A stretch of DNA of 64,000 bases. It comes from Bradyrhizobium sp. ARR65. GTDB lineage: Bacteria > Pseudomonadota > Alphaproteobacteria > Rhizobiales > Xanthobacteraceae. The notes under the pieces are model-generated. The model was given only the letters and a program-made list of their open reading frames with translations, searched no databases and had not been told where the DNA came from. Shown here piece by piece: positions 4,372 to 39,639 of this stretch. How positions within the stretch are numbered: the first letter of the stretch is position 1; the number at the start of each line of letters is the position of its first letter. The position numbers and the translations under genes were made by a program. Where the stretch lies: contig NZ_AWZU01000006.1 in the NCBI RefSeq assembly GCF_000472385.1, forward strand, positions 124,108 through 188,107, written 5' to 3'.

Positions 4372-5457
4372 ATGCGATTTTTGCCGGTGTTTCTCGACCT
4401 GCAATCCGGACCGGTGCTTCTCATCGGTTCCGGCGAGCTTGCGCAGGCCAAGCTCCGGGTGCTGGCAGCCGCCGGCGCGCAGGTGCGCTGGTACGCGATG
4501 TCCGGCGACCATGATGTGAGCGGCCTGGAGGGCGCGCAAGCGGCAAAGATCGAGCGCGCCACCGGCGATCCGCTCACGGCCGATCTTCACGGGGTCGTCG
4601 CTGTCTTTTGCGCGGGCGCGGGCGACGTCGGCGTTGCAGTGGCGGCCCGGGCGAAATCGCTGGGCCTGCCGGTCAATGTCATGGACGACCTGGCGCATTC
4701 CAGCTTTATCTTTCCTGCCATCGTCGATCGCGGCGACGTGGTGATCGCGATCGGGACCGGCGGTGCCTCGCCCGTGGTCGCACGGCGCGTGCGCGAGCGC
4801 ATCGAGGCGGCGCTGCCGTCGCGGATCGGCGAGCTCGCCAATTTCATCGGTCGTTTTCGCAAATCGATCCACGAGCGGATCCCCGAATTCCTGCTGCGCC
4901 GCCGTTTCTGGGAGAAGGTGATCGACGGCAAGATCGGCGCGCTCGTTCTTTCGGGCCGCGATAGCGAGGCGGAGGCCGCGCTCAACGAGATCGACGACCC
5001 CTCCGCTTTTGCCGGCGCCCTTTCCTCCGGCGCGGCGGAAGGCAGCGTGACGCTGGCTGGCGCAGGCCCCGGTGATCCCGACCTCTTGACGGTGAAAGCG
5101 CTGCGCGCGCTGCAGGATGCAGACATCGTCTTCCACGACGAAGACGTCGCGTCGGACATCCTGGATCGCATTCGCCGCGACGCGGCGCGCGTGGCGGTGA
5201 GCCGCGGAGACCAGGATGCTGCCATCGCGCAGATCGTAGCTGCCGCGAAAGCGGGACGGCGGGTGGTGTTGCTGAGGGCCGGCGACGTTTACGGGCCGGG
5301 CCGCGGCGGCAAGGCCATCGCGGCACTGCGCGAGGCCGGTGTCACTCATTTCGTCATACCGGGCGTCGTCGCCGATTTCGGCGAGGTGCGGCCGTTCTCG
5401 CCTTCCGCGCTTTCGCGCCCGCCGCGCAGTGGCACGGCAAAAGCCTCCAACAACTGA
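4372..5457 (+). CDS. cysG: Siroheme synthase with intact dehydrogenase domain and truncated methyltransferase domain
   Basis: This 361-residue protein supplies siroheme for the sulfite reductase encoded downstream. Residues 1-210 match precorrin-2 dehydrogenase/sirohydrochlorin ferrochelatase: an NAD-binding loop (LLIGSGELAQAKLRVLAAAG), the conserved acid pair in VNVMDDLAHSSFIFPA, and TGGASPVVARRVRERIE. From about residue 223 a uroporphyrinogen-III methyltransferase fold begins (VTLAGAGPGDPDLLTVKALR). It stops after about 135 residues, and its SAM-binding motif GGDPFVFGRGG is changed to AGDVYGPGRGG. Full CysG proteins are about 457 residues, so the second half of this domain is missing. Expected activity is oxidation/chelation only. 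The ATG at 4372 was chosen because the family N-terminus starts there. It opens the sulfate operon. Confidence 0.88.
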   Translation: MRFLPVFLDLQSGPVLLIGSGELAQAKLRVLAAAGAQVRWYAMSGDHDVSGLEGAQAAKIERATGDPLTADLHGVVAVFCAGAGDVGVAVAARAKSLGLPVNVMDDLAHSSFIFPAIVDRGDVVIAIGTGGASPVVARRVRERIEAALPSRIGELANFIGRFRKSIHERIPEFLLRRRFWEKVIDGKIGALVLSGRDSEAEAALNEIDDPSAFAGALSSGAAEGSVTLAGAGPGDPDLLTVKALRALQDADIVFHDEDVASDILDRIRRDAARVAVSRGDQDAAIAQIVAAAKAGRRVVLLRAGDVYGPGRGGKAIAALREAGVTHFVIPGVVADFGEVRPFSPSALSRPPRSGTAKASNN

Positions 5458-5485: not shown

Positions 5486-5803
5486 ATGACCTCTCCGCTC
5501 GAACAGAAAATCAGGATCACCGGTCCGTCCGTGGTCACCGCCAACCGGACCTGGGATGGCACGGTCGTCTACCGCACGGCGACCAAGGGGTGGTCCACCG
5601 ATCTTGCCGATGCCGCAGTAGTGCGTGCGGTCCCGGAAGCGCGCGCGCTGCTCGCCGAAGCCGTCGCCGACGATCTGGGCGCGGTCGGCGCCTATATCGC
5701 GCCGGTCGAGATCGGCGAGAGCGGCAAGATTGCGCCCGGCAATTTGCGCGAACGGATCCGCGCGAGCGGCGTCACCATCGATCTGCTTCCGGTTCCGGCG
5801 TGA
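5486..5803 (+). CDS. DUF2849 protein of the sulfite reductase operon
   Basis: This 105-residue soluble protein has the family pattern ITGPSVVTANRTWDGTVVYR near the start and a C-terminal segment RERIRASGVTIDLLPVP. DUF2849 genes typically sit directly upstream of cysI in alphaproteobacteria, as here (28 bases after cysG, 10 bases before cysI). A role as an accessory factor for sulfite reduction is inferred from this context only. The ATG at 5486 gives the full family N-terminus; the frame extends upstream only into the cysG coding region. Confidence 0.85.
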   Translation: MTSPLEQKIRITGPSVVTANRTWDGTVVYRTATKGWSTDLADAAVVRAVPEARALLAEAVADDLGAVGAYIAPVEIGESGKIAPGNLRERIRASGVTIDLLPVPA

Positions 5804-10669: not shown

Positions 10670-11595
10670 GAGGGTCGATGAGCATCGAAATGACGCTGCA
10701 ACGGGGCCGCGTCGCCGCTTCCGCTAGGGAAGACGGCGCGGATGCGTCGGCCGCCGCGCTCGGCCACGTCGGCCCGCGCACCGAGCCGAAGCTCGTGCGC
10801 ATCGCGATCACCGCGATTGCCGTCATGTTCCTGATGCTGTTCGTTGTGCTGCCTCTGGTCGTGGTCTTCGCGCAAGCCTTTGCCCAGGGCGTTGGCGTCT
10901 ATTTCGCCGCGCTATCGGACCCGGAGGCGCTGTCTGCCATCCGGCTGACGCTGCTGGTGGCCGCGATTTCCGTCAGTCTCAATCTGCTGTTTGGGCTGAT
11001 CGCGGCCTGGGGAATCGCGAAATTTGAGTTTCCCGGCAAGACGTTCCTGATCTCGCTGATCGATCTGCCGTTCTCGGTGAGCCCGGTCATCTCTGGCCTC
11101 GTCTTCGTGTTGTTGTTCGGCGCCCAGGGGTTTTTCGGCCCCTTCCTCGCCCAGCACAATATTCAGGTGCTGTTCGCTCTGCCGGGCATCGCGCTTGCGA
11201 CCATCTTCGTCACCTTTCCCTTCGTGGCGCGCGCGTTGATTCCGCTGATGCAGGAGCAGGGCACGCAGGAAGAGGAGGCCGCCATCTCGCTCGGCGCCTC
11301 CGGTCTGCAGACGTTCTTCCGTGTCACCCTGCCCAACATCAAGTGGGGGCTGCTCTATGGCGTGCTGCTGTGTAACGCCCGCGCCATGGGCGAGTTCGGT
11401 GCGGTGTCGGTGGTGTCGGGACACATTCGCGGGCTGACCAACACCATGCCGCTGCTGGTCGAAATTCTCTACAACGAATATCAGTTCGTCGCTTCCTTCG
11501 CGGTGGCCTCGCTGCTCGCGATGCTGGCACTGATCACACTGGTCGCAAAGACCATCCTCGAACGACGCCTGGACAATGAGGACATCGAGCCGTGA
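10666..11595 (+). CDS. cysW: Sulfate ABC transporter permease CysW
   Basis: This is the second permease subunit of the sulfate importer, 309 residues with about six membrane helices. The EAA loop reads [20 protein letters not shown], and the family-typical [20 protein letters not shown] follows. It has a longer cytoplasmic N-terminal tail (about 45 residues) than E. coli CysW. The ATG at 10666 overlaps the cysT stop and is chosen for coupling; an in-frame ATG at 10678 is an alternative. The cysA start overlaps its end by four bases. Confidence 0.94.
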
Positions 11596-33277: not shown

Positions 33278-33601
33278 CTAGATCTTCTGCATCTCCGTGA
33301 ACCATCTGCCGCTGTAGGGGCCGATATAGGTGCCGCTCTGCATGCACTGCGCTTTCGCGGCCGTGCACATCGGCACCCTGTCGGGTCGCGAGCTGGAGAA
33401 GCGGATGCAGGAGGCGGCATAGGCGCTGCAGCTACGAGGGATTTGCGCGCGCAGCACCGACATCCTGTAGCGGTAGGAGCGGCCGCCATCGGAGGACTGG
33501 CAGCATTTGCCGTCCATCCTGGTGGCGGATGCGGTCGTGATGTCGATCGACCAGACGGCGCCCGACAGCGCGATCGACAGAATGACGGCGAGTGACTTCA
33601 T
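33278..33601 (-). CDS. Small secreted six-cysteine protein
   Basis: This 107-residue protein has a signal peptide (MKSLAVILSIALSGAVWSID, cleavage probably after ASA near residue 26). Six cysteines follow in the mature part (GKCCQSSDG, RSCSAYAASC, MCTAAKAQCM), so disulfide bonds in the periplasm or outside are likely. The ending GTYIGPYSGRWFTEMQ recurs in uncharacterised rhizobial secreted proteins as far as I remember. Function is unknown. It follows the DUF1501 gene on the same strand after 32 bases and may be part of that transcript. Confidence 0.65.
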   Translation of the reverse strand: MKSLAVILSIALSGAVWSIDITTASATRMDGKCCQSSDGGRSYRYRMSVLRAQIPRSCSAYAASCIRFSSSRPDRVPMCTAAKAQCMQSGTYIGPYSGRWFTEMQKI

Positions 33602-33633: not shown

Positions 33634-34875
33634 TCAGCCGACAAGCCCGGACATCGGTGCAACATCGCTGCTGTCCGGAAACACGCTGCTTGCCAGGGCG
33701 CGTTCCTCAACGCGCAGGTGATCCCTCAAAAGCCCCTTGAGCACGGCGCGCAGATCGGTAGTGGGTTTCAGGTCGCGCCCTTCGTAAAGCTGCTCCACCT
33801 TGAGGCCGGGCCAGTCGGCGATCACGCGCCCGCCGTTCAGCGCGCCGCCGGCGAGAAGAGCGACGGTGGCCGTGCCGTGATCGGTGCCATAGGTGCCGTT
33901 GATGCGCGCGGTACGGCCGAACTCGGTGACGATGGCGACCACGGTCTCGCGCCAGGCGTCTGCCATATTGCTCTCGATCGCGGCAATCGCGCCGTCGAGC
34001 GCGCCGAGCAGATTGTGGAGCTGGCCTGCGGCGGCGCCCTCGTTGATATGCGTATCCCATCCGACGAAACCGAGCGCGCCGACGCGCGGACCGTCGGCCT
34101 TCGCGAGAAAGCGCGCGGCGGTGCCGGCGGCTTCCGCGAAATAGGCGCGTACGCGCGCGATGGGCGGCAGCGCCGGCGACTCATTGTTCGCCATCGGATC
34201 CTCGATGCCGGCACCGCCGAGCGCGGTCAGCCGCATCCGCGCCTGAAGCGCAACGGCGAGCTTGGGATCGGTGTGCTGATAGAGTTCGAGCAGGCGCGCG
34301 GCCGTATCGCCGCTCGCGGCAAGCAGCTTCTGCGGCACCCACGACAGCACCGGCGCCTTGCCGCGCACCACCAGAGGCGTCACCGCACCGACTCCGAAGG
34401 CGGCGGCCCCGCTCGGATTGACCCGGCCCTCCGGTTGCAGCGCGAGGAGCGCGCGATTGAGCCAGCCGCTGTCGACCGCGCCGGGCCGCACGAATCCGCT
34501 CTCCAGAACATCCTGGCCATCGAAATGGGAGCGCTCGCGATAGGGCGTTGCGGTCGCGTGCACGATGGCAGCCTGCTTCGCCTGATAGAGCCGCTGCAGG
34601 TTCGGCATCGCCGGATTGAGCGCGAAGAAGTTGTCGAGCGGCAAGGCAGGCGTCTTGCCATCGAGCACCAGCGCGCGCTCGCCGCGCAACGCGATCCAGT
34701 CGGGATCGCCGACCGGCGCGACCGTGGCCAGCCCGTCCAGCGCGCCCCGCAACACGATCACCAGCATGCGCGGATCGCGCCCTTCGGCGCGGGCCAGCCT
34801 TGGCAATTGCGTCCACGCAAACAAGGCGCCGGAGCCGATCAGCACTTCGCGGCGGCTCACCAGGTGAAAACCCAT
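33634..34875 (-). CDS. DUF1501 protein with twin-arginine-type signal
   Basis: This 413-residue exported protein belongs to DUF1501, a family in the alkaline-phosphatase-like superfamily of unknown reaction. The N-terminus carries a twin-arginine signal (SRREVLIGSGALFAW, cleavage near LARAEG), so it is probably folded before export. Family marks are MLVIVLRGALDGLATVAPVG, FALNPAMPNLQRLYQAKQAA and a C-terminal VTEFGRTARINGTYGTDHGT. AGGAGG sits five bases before the ATG at 34875, which decides this start over the GTG at 34881. It follows the DUF1800 gene almost without gap, a pairing conserved in many bacteria. Confidence 0.9.
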   Translation of the reverse strand: MGFHLVSRREVLIGSGALFAWTQLPRLARAEGRDPRMLVIVLRGALDGLATVAPVGDPDWIALRGERALVLDGKTPALPLDNFFALNPAMPNLQRLYQAKQAAIVHATATPYRERSHFDGQDVLESGFVRPGAVDSGWLNRALLALQPEGRVNPSGAAAFGVGAVTPLVVRGKAPVLSWVPQKLLAASGDTAARLLELYQHTDPKLAVALQARMRLTALGGAGIEDPMANNESPALPPIARVRAYFAEAAGTAARFLAKADGPRVGALGFVGWDTHINEGAAAGQLHNLLGALDGAIAAIESNMADAWRETVVAIVTEFGRTARINGTYGTDHGTATVALLAGGALNGGRVIADWPGLKVEQLYEGRDLKPTTDLRAVLKGLLRDHLRVEERALASSVFPDSSDVAPMSGLVG

Positions 34876-34877
34876 CG

Positions 34878-36323
34878 TCACCTCCTCTGAAAATCCGCCG
34901 ACATGAACAGGAGCGCCAGTGCCTGCTGGCGGCTTTCGGCGCGACCGACCGCCTGCTTCACCTCGGCTGCGACGCAGGATCCGAGGACGTTCTCGATGAC
35001 ATGCTCGGGATCAACCTTGCCCGCGATCCGTTCGGCAAAAGTGTTGGCAATATCGAGCCGCCGTCCCATGCCGTCGATCCAGCTCGCCTCGTCGTCGGGA
35101 AAGCCCTTCGGCGAGGACGGGCGCCACAACGGCTCGCCCAGCAGCGCTTGCCCGCCGGTGAACCGCTCGGGATCAGCCTGGGTGAGGCCGGCGGCGCGCA
35201 CGATCGAGATGAGCCATTCGCTCGGGCGCTTCAACTTGCCGCGTGGCTCCGTCCAAGCTTCTGGTGATGAGACCATCGTCCTGGCGACTTCCTTGAGGTC
35301 GCCTGACGTATCGAGAAAGGTCTTGGTCATCGCATCGACCAGTGCCTGCGGCGGCGTGTCGGCGATGAAGTGGCGCGCGAGCTTGCTCGCCACATGCGTC
35401 GCGGTCGCGGGATGGATGGCGAGATCGCGCAGCACCGCGCGCCCCTGCTCGACCCCGTCCTGCTCGTAGGACTTGCCCAAGACCCTCTGCGCGCCCGGTT
35501 CGTGCAGGCGGGGGTTGAAGCTGAATTCGCCGCCATGCTCCGGATTGTCTCCAGGCGGCACCAGCGTCCAGCCGGTGAGCACATTGGCAAAGCTGATCAC
35601 GTCGTCCTGGGTGTAGCCGCTGCGTACACCGAGCGTGTGCAGTTCCAACGACTCGCGGGCCAAATTCTCATTCAGGCCGCGGCTGCGGTTGATGCCGGCA
35701 ACAGAGTTCGCGCCCATCGAGCCGAGATTGTCGAGATAGAACAGCATCGCCGGGTGGCTCTCCGCTGCCAGGAGCAGATCGGTGAAGGAGCCCAGCACGT
35801 GAGGGCGGATCGCCTCGCGCTCATAGCCGCCCGACATGCTCCTGATCTTGTCGGCGGAGATGCAGAAATGATTGGACCAGAACCAGACCAGCCGCTCGGT
35901 GAATCCGATGTTTGCGTTGAGCGCCGCCTCGGTCCGCAACTTTGCTTCATCCAGATAAATCCGCCGCCCCGGATCCGGCACCGCCTCGGCGGCGGTCTTT
36001 TGCGCCGCCTCGCTCATGCCTTGCGCAGCGCCCTCGGCCATCGCGGGGCCGGCTGACATCTGCTGCTTGCCGGCTTCCGTTTCAGCACGCGTGGCGACGA
36101 TCGCCTTGGCCTGGCGCCTCGCATTGGCGTCGGCGACCGCGCGGAATGCTTTCGCGCTGGTTGGCAAGGAGGATGCTGCCGCGGGGTAGGGCGGTGGATT
36201 ATCGAGTTCTGCCAGCAGCGCCGCGCGCGGGTCCGCCGCGATTGCGTCGATCGACCCGGGGCGCGGCCCCATGCCGAAGCGTTGAAGCGCGAAAACGGCA
36301 TCAGCCTTTACGGAACTGCTCAT
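34878..36323 (-). CDS. DUF1800 domain protein
   Basis: This 481-residue protein has the defining family elements: FALQRFGMGPRPGSIDAI near the start, ERLVWFWSNHFCIS, RGLNENLARESLELHTLGV, and VLTGWTLVPPG. DUF1800 proteins nearly always pair with DUF1501 partners and their reaction is unknown. I see no signal peptide, although the partner has one. A coiled, Ala/Gln/Glu-rich insert spans about residues 55-115. The stop codon lies next to the start of the DUF1501 gene, so the two are coupled. A dyad that could bind a BlaI-type repressor lies 74-92 bases upstream of its ATG. Confidence 0.92.
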   Translation of the reverse strand: MSSSVKADAVFALQRFGMGPRPGSIDAIAADPRAALLAELDNPPPYPAAASSLPTSAKAFRAVADANARRQAKAIVATRAETEAGKQQMSAGPAMAEGAAQGMSEAAQKTAAEAVPDPGRRIYLDEAKLRTEAALNANIGFTERLVWFWSNHFCISADKIRSMSGGYEREAIRPHVLGSFTDLLLAAESHPAMLFYLDNLGSMGANSVAGINRSRGLNENLARESLELHTLGVRSGYTQDDVISFANVLTGWTLVPPGDNPEHGGEFSFNPRLHEPGAQRVLGKSYEQDGVEQGRAVLRDLAIHPATATHVASKLARHFIADTPPQALVDAMTKTFLDTSGDLKEVARTMVSSPEAWTEPRGKLKRPSEWLISIVRAAGLTQADPERFTGGQALLGEPLWRPSSPKGFPDDEASWIDGMGRRLDIANTFAERIAGKVDPEHVIENVLGSCVAAEVKQAVGRAESRQQALALLFMSADFQRR

Positions 36324-36396
36324 GCGCGGTGCTCACAACATTTCAAGCGATGGCTTGCCGGCAGCCACCGGCTTTGACATTTGGTGACAAGCTGTA

Positions 36397-36434
36397 GTGC
36401 TACATACTGTAGCACTTAAGATCCGATGATGCAA
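36397..36434 (-). promoter_or_regulatory. Candidate BlaI-type operator over the DUF1800-DUF1501 promoter
   Basis: A perfect dyad GTGCTACA-TAC-TGTAGCAC spans 36397-36415. On the minus strand a TTGCAT hexamer (36434-36429) is spaced 17 bases from TACAGT (36411-36406), which lies inside the dyad. TACA/TGTA half-sites are typical of BlaI/MecI/CopY operators, and a BlaI homologue is encoded about 3 kb away. The promoter hexamers are imperfect, so this is a model, not a proven site. Confidence 0.5.
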
Positions 36435-36505: not shown

Positions 36506-39043
36506 CTAGTAAGAAGGTCCCAGCGTGATTCGTCCGATACTGCCGTCCTTGGCAAGGCCGATCCGCCATTCGACCGAGCCGTTGGCGAAGTGCGCGATGT
36601 AGACATCACTGCCGATCAGGGTGACACCGCGGAACGAGAGCGCGCGCAGCTCTCCGAGCTTGGCGAGGATCGCGCGGTCGAAGGGAAGCTGCTGGCGCGT
36701 TTCGGCGGCGACTTCGGCGGTCATGCGATCGTAGTTCGGCTGACCGCGGTCCAGTCCCTGGATATAATCGCGCAGCATCTCCTCGCTGCCCGCGAGCGGT
36801 GCGGTACGCCGCTCGACATGCTCCGGTTCACCGCGTGATGCCTCGACGACGTGATAGCGCGTGCGCTGTCCCGGCAGCACGATCTCCAGACACTGTCCCG
36901 ATCGGTCGGTCACGACCCATGTGCTGTCGACGGTGGTCAAGAACGCAGCCGACCTGTCATCGGCGATTGTGCCATGCGTGGTCCGGGCTCCCTTGGCGTC
37001 CAGGCTGTAGAGCTGGATGTCGTCGCCGGTGCTGTTGAAGAGCTGGATCTTGATCGGCGCATTGCCGGCTTGCGCTTTCAGGTTCGGTTGTCCGGAGCAG
37101 GCGAGGACGTCGCCGGGCTCATCATTGCCGTTGGGGCGGAAGAGGACGTCCTCGGCCTTTCCGTCGGGTCCCAGCAGCACGCGGAATTCCGCGGACCCGT
37201 TCGCAAACTTCACGCCATAGATGTCGTAGCCGCCGGGACCGACGCCGCGAAAGAAAATCGATTCGACCGCACCCAGCGATACGAAGACCTCGTGCAGCTG
37301 AGCGGCCTGACGACGGATCGCGGCTGCGAGGGTCGCGCTCATCCGGTCATAATTCGGCGTCCCGTTTTGCATGTCGGCGATCCCGCGCAGGATCACCTCC
37401 TTCACTCCGGGCGTCGGCGTTTGTGCGCGGAAGCGATCCGGAACCTCCGTCATCCGGCGCGCAAACTCGCCTTCGACGATTCTGGCCCTGGCCTGATCAA
37501 TGCGCGGCGCAAGGCGCGCTCCGGATATCTGGTCGGACAGCAGGAGCTTGGGCACCTGTCCCTGGTCGTCGCGCAGGAAAACGACGAGATCGCCGTCGCC
37601 GCTGAAGAAGGCGTCGGGGCCGTCGGTCGTCAGCTCCACTCGCGTGCGCCCGGTCTCCTGTATGTGCAAGCCGTTGCCGTCCCGGGTCACTGCGAGCGCC
37701 CGGTTCGGCGCCAATTCGTACCAGCCGACATATTGATCAAGCAGTGTCGTGCTCATTTCGGCGCTCGCGCGGCGCATGGCGACGATCCGGGCCGCGTGCA
37801 CATCGTGGCCGTTCTGGTGCAGCGTCAGCTCAGCGGATTGCCCGGCATCGACGGCGAAGGTGATCGGGCCGCCGGTTGCGGGATAGGAATAGTTGCCATC
37901 GCTGGTCTGCGTCAGGTGAAGCTTGCGTTGCCCGGTGAGTTGCCCAAAGAGATCATCACCCTCCCGGAAGATGGCGAGCACTGATCGTGGGCCGAACGCG
38001 TAGAAATCGGCGCGCTCGGGGTTGTCCGGCACCGTTCCCCGATCGTCGGGCCGGCCGGCGGTGAACGCCGGCGGCTCCGGCGCGCGATCGGCGATGCTGC
38101 CGCTGGAGGCGACGGCAACGGGCACGATCGCCACTGCGATCCAGAGCCGCTGCCGCCAGGCCGCTCTCGGCGGCACAGCAACAGCCGCGACAATGCGCTC
38201 AATGCGTGTGCGTATGGTGGACGCCCTGGCCATTTCGAGCCCGGCCGGTTTGATGCGGCCGATGTTCTGCACGAGATCGAGCAGGATTTCCGCATAGGAG
38301 AGTCGATCCTCGAGGACCTCGATCGCCTCGGCATCGCTGATGATCTCCGCGAGTTCGGCCAGCCGGGTCAGTTGCCACCACGCAAACGGGCTGAACCAGA
38401 ACAGGGCGCGATTGAGCGAGGCGAGCAGCAGGATGTAGAAATCGCGGTTGGCGATATGGGCGCCCTCGTGTGCGAGCACGGCCTCGCGCTTTCGGAAATC
38501 CCAATCGTCGAACTGCGAAGGTACGAGGATGGTCGAACCGAAGGTGACTGGCCCGTCAATGGCAGGACTGATGCGGACGTTCCCGAATCCAGGCTCGTCG
38601 ATCGGCCTTGCTGCGCGCGCCAGCCGCCAAGTCAAATGCAGGCCGAGCGCCAATCTGAGCAGCAGCAGGCCGGCAACGCCGGCGTAAACCGCCATCGCGA
38701 TGGCCTGCCAATTGGCGGCCAACCAATCGATGCGTTGGTGTTGCGCGACGGGGACTGCGGCCGGCGGGCTGCTCTCCGACGATAGCGCGCCCTGCAGCAG
38801 CTCCGGCGGGGAGGTTTCAATGGGCCAGAAATGCTCCGTCGTGGGCACCGGCAGGGCGCCGACGGTGACGGTCACGACCGTCCAGCGCATCAGAAGCGGC
38901 ATCGCCAACGATGCAAACAGCACGATCGTCCACGAGGTCATTTGCAGGTGCGGATTCCGCACGCGGAAAAGAGTGAGACAAGTCCAGACGATGCTTCCCA
39001 GCAAAAAGGAGCGCAACGCCGCCTCTGCCAGAATTGTCAGCAT
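36506..39043 (-). CDS. M56-family (BlaR1-like) membrane metalloprotease with duplicated non-PBP C-terminal modules
   Basis: This 845-residue protein has about four membrane helices in its first 330 residues and a zinc protease motif HEGAH (192-196), with the third-ligand region LAEIISDAEAIEVLED. In BlaR1 this part cleaves the BlaI repressor after a signal. The penicillin-binding sensor of BlaR1 is absent. Instead there are two beta-rich modules resembling DUF3471 (about 340-425 and 430-520), and two copies of a roughly 95-residue module (about 546-640 and 752-845). Each copy of the latter contains PNYDRM and a FRGVxxxGxDxY-type strand, and then FANGSxEWRI. The ATG at 39043 shares its A with the blaI stop (TAATG), so translation is coupled. 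Confidence 0.88.
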   Translation of the reverse strand: MLTILAEAALRSFLLGSIVWTCLTLFRVRNPHLQMTSWTIVLFASLAMPLLMRWTVVTVTVGALPVPTTEHFWPIETSPPELLQGALSSESSPPAAVPVAQHQRIDWLAANWQAIAMAVYAGVAGLLLLRLALGLHLTWRLARAARPIDEPGFGNVRISPAIDGPVTFGSTILVPSQFDDWDFRKREAVLAHEGAHIANRDFYILLLASLNRALFWFSPFAWWQLTRLAELAEIISDAEAIEVLEDRLSYAEILLDLVQNIGRIKPAGLEMARASTIRTRIERIVAAVAVPPRAAWRQRLWIAVAIVPVAVASSGSIADRAPEPPAFTAGRPDDRGTVPDNPERADFYAFGPRSVLAIFREGDDLFGQLTGQRKLHLTQTSDGNYSYPATGGPITFAVDAGQSAELTLHQNGHDVHAARIVAMRRASAEMSTTLLDQYVGWYELAPNRALAVTRDGNGLHIQETGRTRVELTTDGPDAFFSGDGDLVVFLRDDQGQVPKLLLSDQISGARLAPRIDQARARIVEGEFARRMTEVPDRFRAQTPTPGVKEVILRGIADMQNGTPNYDRMSATLAAAIRRQAAQLHEVFVSLGAVESIFFRGVGPGGYDIYGVKFANGSAEFRVLLGPDGKAEDVLFRPNGNDEPGDVLACSGQPNLKAQAGNAPIKIQLFNSTGDDIQLYSLDAKGARTTHGTIADDRSAAFLTTVDSTWVVTDRSGQCLEIVLPGQRTRYHVVEASRGEPEHVERRTAPLAGSEEMLRDYIQGLDRGQPNYDRMTAEVAAETRQQLPFDRAILAKLGELRALSFRGVTLIGSDVYIAHFANGSVEWRIGLAKDGSIGRITLGPSY

Positions 39044-39429
39044 TATTTTTTTGCTCCCTTCGCCCTGGCCTTTGCCACCTGGTCGGCAAGCTGGCGCAAC
39101 TGCTTTTGGTCGAGCATCGCGCTGTCGACCATGCCGACCAGGACCTCCTCGATCGAGCCGTTGCAGAACCAGTCGACGATGCGCTTGACGGCTTTCGCCG
39201 CAACGCGCCCGCGCGGCTCGGCTGCATGGTAGACGTAAGTGCGTCCATCCACCGTGTGCCGCACATAGCCCTTGTCCTCCAGCCTGCGCAGCACGGTGCG
39301 AACCGTGGACTCCTTCAGCTTGCGCGCAAGCTTCTCGCGCACCACCTCGGCCGTGATTGGCGCATGCGCCCAAACCAGTTGCATGACCTCCCGTTCGAGG
39401 TCACCGAGTTCGGGCAGGCTGTCATGCAT
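39043..39429 (-). CDS. BlaI/MecI/CopY-family repressor
   Basis: This 128-residue winged-helix repressor reads LPELGDLEREVMQLVWAHAP, then VREKLARKLKESTVRTVLRR and LEDKGYVRHTVDGRTYVYHA. The C-terminal dimerisation half is typical (FCNGSIEEVLVGMVDSAML). In this family the partner M56 protease cleaves the repressor to open its targets. Its stop codon overlaps the M56 start. An imperfect GGTAG-N6-CTACC repeat lies 84-100 bases upstream and could be an autoregulatory site, though its half-sites are oriented differently from those of the dyad at 36.4 kb. Confidence 0.92.
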   Translation of the reverse strand: MHDSLPELGDLEREVMQLVWAHAPITAEVVREKLARKLKESTVRTVLRRLEDKGYVRHTVDGRTYVYHAAEPRGRVAAKAVKRIVDWFCNGSIEEVLVGMVDSAMLDQKQLRQLADQVAKARAKGAKK

Positions 39430-39639
39430 GGTGCGGTCCTTGTCATTTTGCGCGCTGTACCGCTACGGATCGTCGCACATGAGGCGACGTTAGGCAACTC
39501 CGATTCGACATGGGTAGCGAGTTCTACCTGGGATGGAGCGCGTCCGACCGGATACCGGACCCATGACTGCCTGTTAGCCAATTGCGCCGGCAGTCGCCTC
39601 GCCCGCGGTGCACGGGGCGGGAAACCCCGTGCGCGCGAC

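Follow-up and report, generated by a model that had tools for sequence, protein, structure and literature searches.

Genes and operators at the locus

We analysed a 64,000-nucleotide stretch of DNA from Bradyrhizobium sp. ARR65 (hereafter the window), in which the minus strand carries, in this order, genes for a BlaI-family repressor, an M56 membrane protease, a DUF1800 protein, a DUF1501 protein and a 107-amino-acid cysteine-rich protein. A first-pass annotation of the window had reported a perfect dyad over the DUF1800-DUF1501 promoter and had proposed BlaI as its regulator; its placement of BlaI and M56 directly upstream of this pair on the same strand was borne out. Comparison with related genomes indicates that the locus is very probably a BlaI/M56 repressor-protease circuit with an unusual sensor and swappable targets, acting at both of the operators described below. 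The features, in window coordinates, are:

39457..39475, minus strand: second operator copy, at the BlaI-M56 promoter, CGACGATCCGTAGCGGTAC; -35 TTGCCT at 39497-39492, 17 bp upstream
39043..39429, minus strand: BlaI-family repressor, 128 amino acids (PF03965, E 1.2e-29)
36506..39043, minus strand: M56 membrane protease/receptor, 845 amino acids (PF05569, E 2.8e-18; PF11954, DUF3471)
36406..36434, minus strand: DUF1800-DUF1501 promoter, predicted from sequence; -35 TTGCAT at 36434-36429, 17-bp spacer, extended -10 TGC-TACAGT at 36414-36406
36385..36412, minus strand: four-half-site BlaI-type operator at the DUF1800-DUF1501 promoter, its skeleton kept in 28 aligned promoters
34878..36323, minus strand: DUF1800 protein, 481 amino acids, without a twin-arginine motif (PF08811, E 4.4e-119)
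33634..34881, minus strand: DUF1501 protein, 415 amino acids, with a twin-arginine (Tat)-type N-terminus, its start overlapping the DUF1800 stop (PF07394, E 9.8e-31)
33278..33601, minus strand: small cysteine-rich protein, 107 amino acids, apparently secreted, downstream of DUF1501 (no Pfam family)

The repressor scored 103 bits against PF03965 (cut-off 22.6), phmmer matched it to the structures of BlaI (1p6r), MecI (1sd6/1okr) and 2g9w, and its gene shares a one-base overlap with that of M56.

The dyad, GTGCTACA-TAC-TGTAGCAC, was an exact 8+3+8 dyad at 36397-36415, as annotated. As a statistical surprise by itself it was ruled out, the window holding six exact 8+3+8 dyads where about two were expected (one to four in five Markov samples, 1.7 analytically); the dyad is significant because it is conserved among relatives, not by the window sequence alone. 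The 19-base pattern with three mismatches allowed had one match in the window, a count reached in 8 of 100 shuffles, and TACA-N11-TGTA had none there. The core CTACA-N3-TGTAG occurred exactly at two further places in the genome (G000:C38 and C46), neither with a second dyad, and these scored −16 and −24 with the operator matrix. At two mismatches the window pattern CTACANNNTGTAG, which has this short core, gave 23 matches against 4.8 expected in shuffles.

The functional unit predicted from the alignments is larger than the annotated dyad, which forms half of a four-half-site operator. This operator consists of two CTAC-N5-GTAG-type dyads, 15 bp from centre to centre, whose half-sites in the window are CTAC (36412-36409), GTAG (36403-36400), CTAC (36397-36394) and an outermost, degenerate GTCA (36388-36385). 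A plausible -10 element had been placed under the dyad, and a -10-like sequence was present there: TACAGT (36411-36406 on the minus strand), extended by TGC, sits within the left dyad and lies 17 bp from TTGCAT, whose position agrees with the end coordinate 36434 of the annotated region. The copy of the operator at the BlaI-M56 promoter (39457-39475) had been missed. When the operator pattern was searched in the whole 8.6-Mb genome with at most one mismatch, it matched two places, namely the DUF1800 and BlaI-M56 promoters, and nothing past them that would point to a wider regulon. The genome contains a second BlaI-M56 pair (G000:C17:133363-133728; L002, L086), with a BlaI 70% identical, the same operator layout, a different half-site (TGCTATGTTGCATAGCGTTAT) and no obvious downstream target.

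Conservation of the operator and co-occurrence with BlaI

We compared 80 DUF1800 loci from named genomes, among which the closest relatives of the window DUF1800 were from Bradyrhizobium. Twenty-eight of these loci were linked to BlaI, M56 or both: BlaI lay within the locus in 26, L003 had M56 at the end of its contig, and L004 had BlaI at another place in its genome, some 15 kb upstream provided that the contig is the same one. The other 52 had no BlaI or M56 match in the locus, although several of the 80 are short contigs on which the lack of BlaI is no proof of its absence. Two pairs of loci are not independent: L040 and L147, probably one and the same contig, and L008 and L146, whose M56 sequences are identical. 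The first-pass annotation had suggested looking for the dyad upstream of DUF1800 genes in relatives, and there it was conserved: the operator was found at the DUF1800 promoter in 27 of the 28 linked loci (28 of 29 with the window) and, by matrix search, in none of the 52 others. The exception was L040, where it precedes an S9 peptidase gene lying between M56 and DUF1800. One position weight matrix match of 11.6 bits occurred among the 52 unlinked loci (L046), distant from DUF1800.

All 28 operator-bearing DUF1800 promoters had the skeleton TG-YTAC-N5-GTAGC-RYTAC. The fourth half-site was GTAG or GTAA in 23 of them and GTC[AG] in five (the window, L005, L006, L008, L024). The spacing between an upstream -35 TTG and the -10 was exactly 17 bp in all 28 DUF1800 promoters and, among the BlaI promoters tested, in 25 of 26. 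Conservation block means were 0.88 for the -35 and, through the right half-sites beyond the -10, 0.83, 0.93 and 0.81, whereas most blocks outside the -35 and operator had values of 0.48-0.61 (0.68 adjoining the -35). A matrix trained on DUF1800 promoters alone recovered the BlaI promoter, with a score of at least 11 bits, in 25 of the 26 BlaI-containing loci, missing that of L040.

We then considered 98 genomes of the genus, searching each for a strict operator pattern and for a BlaI orthologue (at least 80% identity). The strict pattern gave 65 matches in 38 genomes, against seven matches for a backwards control, and 41 genomes had the BlaI orthologue, in one case split (G079). The strict operator was present in 38 of the 41 genomes with the orthologue and in 0 of the 57 without (Fisher p 5e-24, which ignores kinship); a more distant BlaI occurs in four of the 57 (G013, G038, G057, G074). 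In 24 of the 27 genomes with two sites, these lay 3.0-5.1 kb apart on one contig; in G015 and G047 they were on two contigs, and in G065 they were far apart. A DUF1800 orthologue (at least 72% identity) occurred in 32 of the 98 genomes, all within the 41 with BlaI, whereas any DUF1800 occurred in 92, often as a paralogue of about 40-52% identity also found in BlaI-less genomes. The paralogue of the window's own genome (G000:C1) had no operator. In G079 (L189, 436 and 3470) a frameshift splits BlaI and both operators seem one base short, which may reflect joint decay or poor assembly.

Target genes and a conserved microprotein

A tree of M56 was built from 42 loci, using M56 matches over 700 residues only. 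DUF1800-DUF1501 was present in 33 of these loci and missing from nine, with at least three gains or losses on the tree, also when well-supported branches alone were counted. The pair-less rows were a clade of seven from the window's genus, L186 (G095), and L148 from another genus; because each was nested among pair-bearing rows, we read them as loss or replacement of the pair. The second operator was retained in all nine. In the clade of seven it lies directly before a 54-amino-acid open reading frame (ORF), in L186 before a beta-lactamase-fold hydrolase bearing a fused remnant of this ORF, and in L148 before a 64-amino-acid relative of it; the stop of this relative and the predicted start of an RND efflux operon overlap. 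In a comparison of ten DUF1800-less loci, nine kept the operator (11.5 to 28.6 bits); the tenth, L143, had a degraded M56 and had lost the operator. The first-pass annotation had named DUF1800-DUF1501 as the possible target, which holds in that an operator stands at its promoter, but the pair is not a fixed target, being missing from 9 of 42 loci where the operator stays.

Beta-lactamase-fold hydrolases were found at L144, L186 and L190 (by Pfam) and at L015 and L025 (by similarity). At L190 (G032, 5525-5650) two operators separate DUF1800 from a divergent gene for a beta-lactamase-fold/PDZ protein. In L150 and L152 (2531-2841 and 3142-3444, strand-turned), from a distant genus, BlaI-M56 is followed by a small secreted protein about 80 amino acids long, with an operator in front of it in L150 only. 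G015 has a third strong operator at L187 (C423, about 1286-1308, strand-turned). The divergent gene that begins 17-20 bases from it encodes an exported metallopeptidase-like protein and is a possible extra member of the regulon.

The 54-amino-acid ORF, starting MCTLTQRELDFLASLKTGWRRLYRRELMRLL, was found in 23 of the 28 BlaI/M56-linked DUF1800 loci, in 11 of 20 further loci, and in none of the 52 BlaI-less DUF1800 loci. The family is located as follows:

L012 ~10757-10921; L138 3350-3514 (strand-turned); L148 3395-3589 (strand-turned); L199 4429; L196 ~4496-4606: microprotein family, 54-64 amino acids

It matched no Pfam or NCBIfam family at cut-off. The ratio of nonsynonymous to synonymous polymorphism (pN/pS) was 0.31 (33 sequences, 524 pairs) against 1.36 and 1.56 in the shifted frames, and because of this low ratio we take the microprotein to be under purifying selection; the 33 sequences came from the loci, out of 40, that gave the microprotein by motif, and the other seven were left out. 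A search of 391 genomes found 46 places in 44 genomes, and the best 30 of the 46 were all in the BlaI-M56 locus, 22 behind DUF1501 and eight behind M56. Nine further places were fetched: two were in the locus (G422, G442), two were relatives elsewhere (G435, G053), and five had no match at E ≤ 1e-3 (G233, G264, G312, G347 and the second place of G345). The remaining places were judged by coordinates only, or were already among the 20 further loci. Around the G435 and G053 relatives there was no BlaI, M56, DUF1800 or operator within the 9 kb fetched; that of G435 follows a large repeat-rich exported protein and forms one open frame with a biotin-synthase-like protein (names from reading the translations). 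Exclusivity to the BlaI-M56 locus was thus ruled out by these two relatives, and the microprotein family, as judged from its sequence matches, is mostly but not solely in BlaI-M56 loci.

These data raise the alternative that the microprotein is the true target and that DUF1800-DUF1501 are passengers inserted between the operator and the microprotein. Its distribution (23 of 28 linked loci, 0 of 52 others), its position directly behind the operator where DUF1800-DUF1501 is absent, its place as the first gene of the RND operon in L148, and its purifying selection all speak for this. On the other side, no microprotein was detected beside DUF1800-DUF1501 in L006, L008, L024 and L146, nor anywhere in the window genome (at E ≤ 1), G095 retains the operator with the fused remnant only, relatives lie outside the locus in G435 and G053, and DUF1800-DUF1501 is present in 33 of 42 M56 loci. 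We consider this alternative unlikely on balance, yet the strongest competitor to a circuit with exchangeable targets.

As for the proteins of the pair, Pfam scores were 398.8 bits for DUF1800 (cut-off 26.1) and 107.7 bits for DUF1501 (cut-off 27). Both had been described as exported. This was borne out for DUF1501 only, with a twin-arginine N-terminus in 12 of 12 proteins examined; for DUF1800, in an alignment of the window protein and 40 of the 80 loci, two of 41 proteins had RR within the first 30 residues, that of the window had none, and hydropathy gave no separation between the two families. The structure model of DUF1800 (34878-36323) was confident, with a predicted local distance difference test (pLDDT) value of 89. 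Foldseek found no matches to it in the PDB at E ≤ 0.001 and VIA matched mainly residues 55-120, with Z of at most 5.4; because of these results we propose no function from the fold, and this modelled protein is a possible structural target. Searches of PDB sequences with DUF1800, the M56 sensor and DUF1501 gave weak matches only, none meaningful. The 107-amino-acid cysteine-rich protein, with full-length relatives in L004, L139, L144 and L190, is possibly the last gene of the window operon. A role in anti-phage defence was rejected, the PADLOC models matching BlaI weakly only and none of five other proteins.

The receptor and the proposed circuit

M56 scored 66.5 bits against PF05569 (cut-off 31), with four hydrophobic regions and the motif HEGAH (HEXXH) at residue 192. 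The C-terminal region after the last hydrophobic region, about 530 amino acids long, is the predicted sensor. No S-x-x-K occurred after residue 300, Pfam found DUF3471 and no transpeptidase, beta-lactamase or penicillin-binding domain in M56, and the score against NF000326 was 34 bits (cut-off 400). The inducer is probably no beta-lactam acting as in BlaR1, since the sensor lacks an SxxK domain that could be acylated. In the sensor model (mean pLDDT 71), residues 54-228 (M56 ~343-517) matched the C-terminal part of the D-aminopeptidase 1ei5 (Foldseek E 2.9e-6, probability 1.00). With VIA, the model gave Z 11.5 with 1ei5 (root-mean-square deviation 5.1, 155 aligned) and Z 11.1 with the penicillin-binding protein cyclase Ulm16 (deviation 2.0, 85 aligned); the top five rows were 1ei5, Ulm16, the esterase IS11, and SurE twice. 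Model residues 363-438 matched the VHL beta domain (VIA Z ~9, deviation ~2, 72 aligned; Foldseek with 4awj, E 5.6e-3, probability 1.00), and Pfam VHL gave no match in M56 up to E 10. The modelled sensor appears to resemble the accessory barrels of penicillin-recognising enzymes together with a VHL-beta-like domain, a likeness of fold that shows no function. From this likeness and the beta-lactamase-fold hydrolases at several loci, we infer that the inducer may be peptide-like. Our tentative suggestion, conceivable rather than likely, is that a BlaR1-like receptor may have had its penicillin sensor exchanged for the D-peptide-enzyme accessory barrels and VHL-beta-like domain. Its ligand would then be a peptide, whether from D-amino acids, the cell wall or plants, and not a beta-lactam, and it would switch an exchangeable envelope-defence cassette made up of the microprotein, DUF1800-DUF1501, RND efflux, S9 peptidase or beta-lactamase-fold hydrolases.

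For the circuit as a whole, comparison of sequences shows which genes are present, that both promoters carry the operator, that it co-occurs with BlaI and that it is retained when the targets differ. We propose that BlaI dimers would bind the two adjacent dyads (four half-sites), covering the -10 elements of both promoters, and that bound BlaI would hold the BlaI-M56 promoter and the neighbouring target promoter off. M56 would span the membrane, with its outer sensor region meeting the ligand, upon which its zinc-protease part (HEGAH) would cut or disable BlaI. Both promoters would then open, and the target cassette and the sensor would be switched on together. The target in the window would be DUF1800-DUF1501, possibly with the small cysteine-rich secreted protein; in relatives it may be DUF1800-DUF1501 followed by the microprotein, the microprotein alone, the microprotein with an RND pump, or a beta-lactamase-fold hydrolase.

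Several points weigh against this proposal. BlaI as the bound protein, the repression, the cleavage and the inducer are what we infer. The N-F residues of MecI, which we take to be its cleavage site, align with G-M in the window BlaI. The dyad taken alone is within chance expectation, and the backwards-read operator pattern gave 27 matches in the window's own genome at up to one mismatch; because of this control the one-mismatch counts are noisy, though the places are exact. The strict pattern is missing from three genomes with BlaI (G032, G055, G079), and in 11 operator genomes out of 38 it is seen at one of the two sites only. One G015 site (L187) is away from the BlaI locus, beside the peptidase-like gene. 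In G065, BlaI (C1:32484) and DUF1800 (7805403) are 7.8 Mb apart in contig coordinates, where the linkage may be broken or the contig may end within the locus. Kinship confounds the co-occurrence, most BlaI-bearing loci being from one genus, and likewise the comparison of 28 with 52 loci, the BlaI-less ones being from other genera. Lastly, the window's TAC-N5-GTA (TACA-N3-TGTA) differs from the CopY/classical KACA-N2-TGTM given in excerpts of PMC7253601.

The dyad could instead be bound by another regulator encoded elsewhere, with BlaI-M56 as an unrelated neighbour, and the departure from the classical TACA-N2-TGTA spacing would fit this. We find it improbable. The BlaI link proposed by the first-pass annotation was supported by the same site at BlaI's own promoter and by its presence in 38 of 41 genomes with the orthologue against 0 of 57 without; moreover, the 3.0-5.1 kb gap in 24 of 27 two-site genomes is the distance from the BlaI to the target promoter, and the architecture equals that of tested BlaI proteins (PMC8457756, excerpts). 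It is very improbable that the block is a strong promoter whose dyad arose by chance and which is maintained for RNA polymerase rather than a repressor: the block does include a -10 at a fixed 17 bp from a conserved -35 (0.88), but the right half-sites beyond the -10 are conserved as well, at 0.83, 0.93 and 0.81 against 0.48-0.61 in most outside blocks, and DUF1800-DUF1501 loci without BlaI are without the block. Equally hard to credit is a metal-released CopY-type repressor with M56 not the switch, for although CopY_TcrY is the repressor's best NCBIfam match, its TIGR02698 score of 69 bits is far under the cut-off of 121.95 and its single cysteine leaves no C-X-C pair (the CopY metal site in the excerpted PMC7253601), two results that ruled out a copper identity, while BlaI and M56 are encoded with a one-base overlap and no copper gene lies behind either promoter in the genome.

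The circuit proposed here can be set beside known systems, which we compared through excerpts of the papers cited. BlaI_0696 and BlaI_1845 of Clostridium thermocellum have been tested by DNA affinity purification sequencing (DAP-seq) and gel shift (PMC8457756). In their operator, GTCTAT repeats are spaced by five bases and form two pairs for four protomers, which agrees with the Bradyrhizobium architecture, and the family, autoregulation, CTAT/CTAC-type half-sites and a very small regulon are common to both (PMC8457756). BlaR1-like proteins belong to the regulon in both cases. The C. thermocellum targets also include hypothetical proteins and a homologue of a putative peptidoglycan synthesis gene (PMC8457756), unlike the DUF1800-DUF1501, microprotein, RND pump or hydrolases at the loci compared here. 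With BlaI-BlaR1 and MecI-MecR1 of Staphylococcus aureus the window locus shares a BlaI-family repressor and an M56 metalloprotease with an outer C-terminal sensor, but it lacks the SxxK penicillin-binding sensor and blaZ or mecA, and its TACR-YGTA half-site spacing is N3 rather than N2 (PMC9834060, PMC7593790). CopY/CopR share the repressor superfamily, two operators per promoter and TACA/TGTA-like half-sites, whereas the window repressor has no C-X-C metal motif and its partner is a protease (PMC7253601). DUF1800-DUF1501 pairs also occur beside bacterial chitin synthases, again in one operon and with Tat-exported DUF1501, and the excerpts describing them mention no BlaI or M56 (PMC5122149).

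Among the papers listed in searches of open-licence full texts we found no prior report linking BlaI to DUF1800 or DUF1501, and none joining BlaI, M56, regulon, operator and proteobacteria; the Bradyrhizobium text in the excerpts of PMC7593790 concerns FixK2. The protein families are already known, and the target set, the sensor anatomy, the retention of the operator with differing targets, and the microprotein appear to be new. The locus is an example of a BlaI/M56 module that holds its operators while its target genes differ, and it brings to light a conserved microprotein outside any Pfam or NCBIfam family. Pfam assigns no function to the DUF1800 and DUF1501 families, and full-text searches found two papers naming both, ten naming DUF1501 and four naming DUF1800. 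With the repressor, operator and receptor defined, experiments could find the inducer and, through it, perhaps the substrate. In these soil and root-nodule bacteria, a switch akin to the one behind penicillin resistance appears to govern two unstudied proteins instead of a penicillin-destroying enzyme, and in many relatives a tiny unnamed protein is among its apparent targets.
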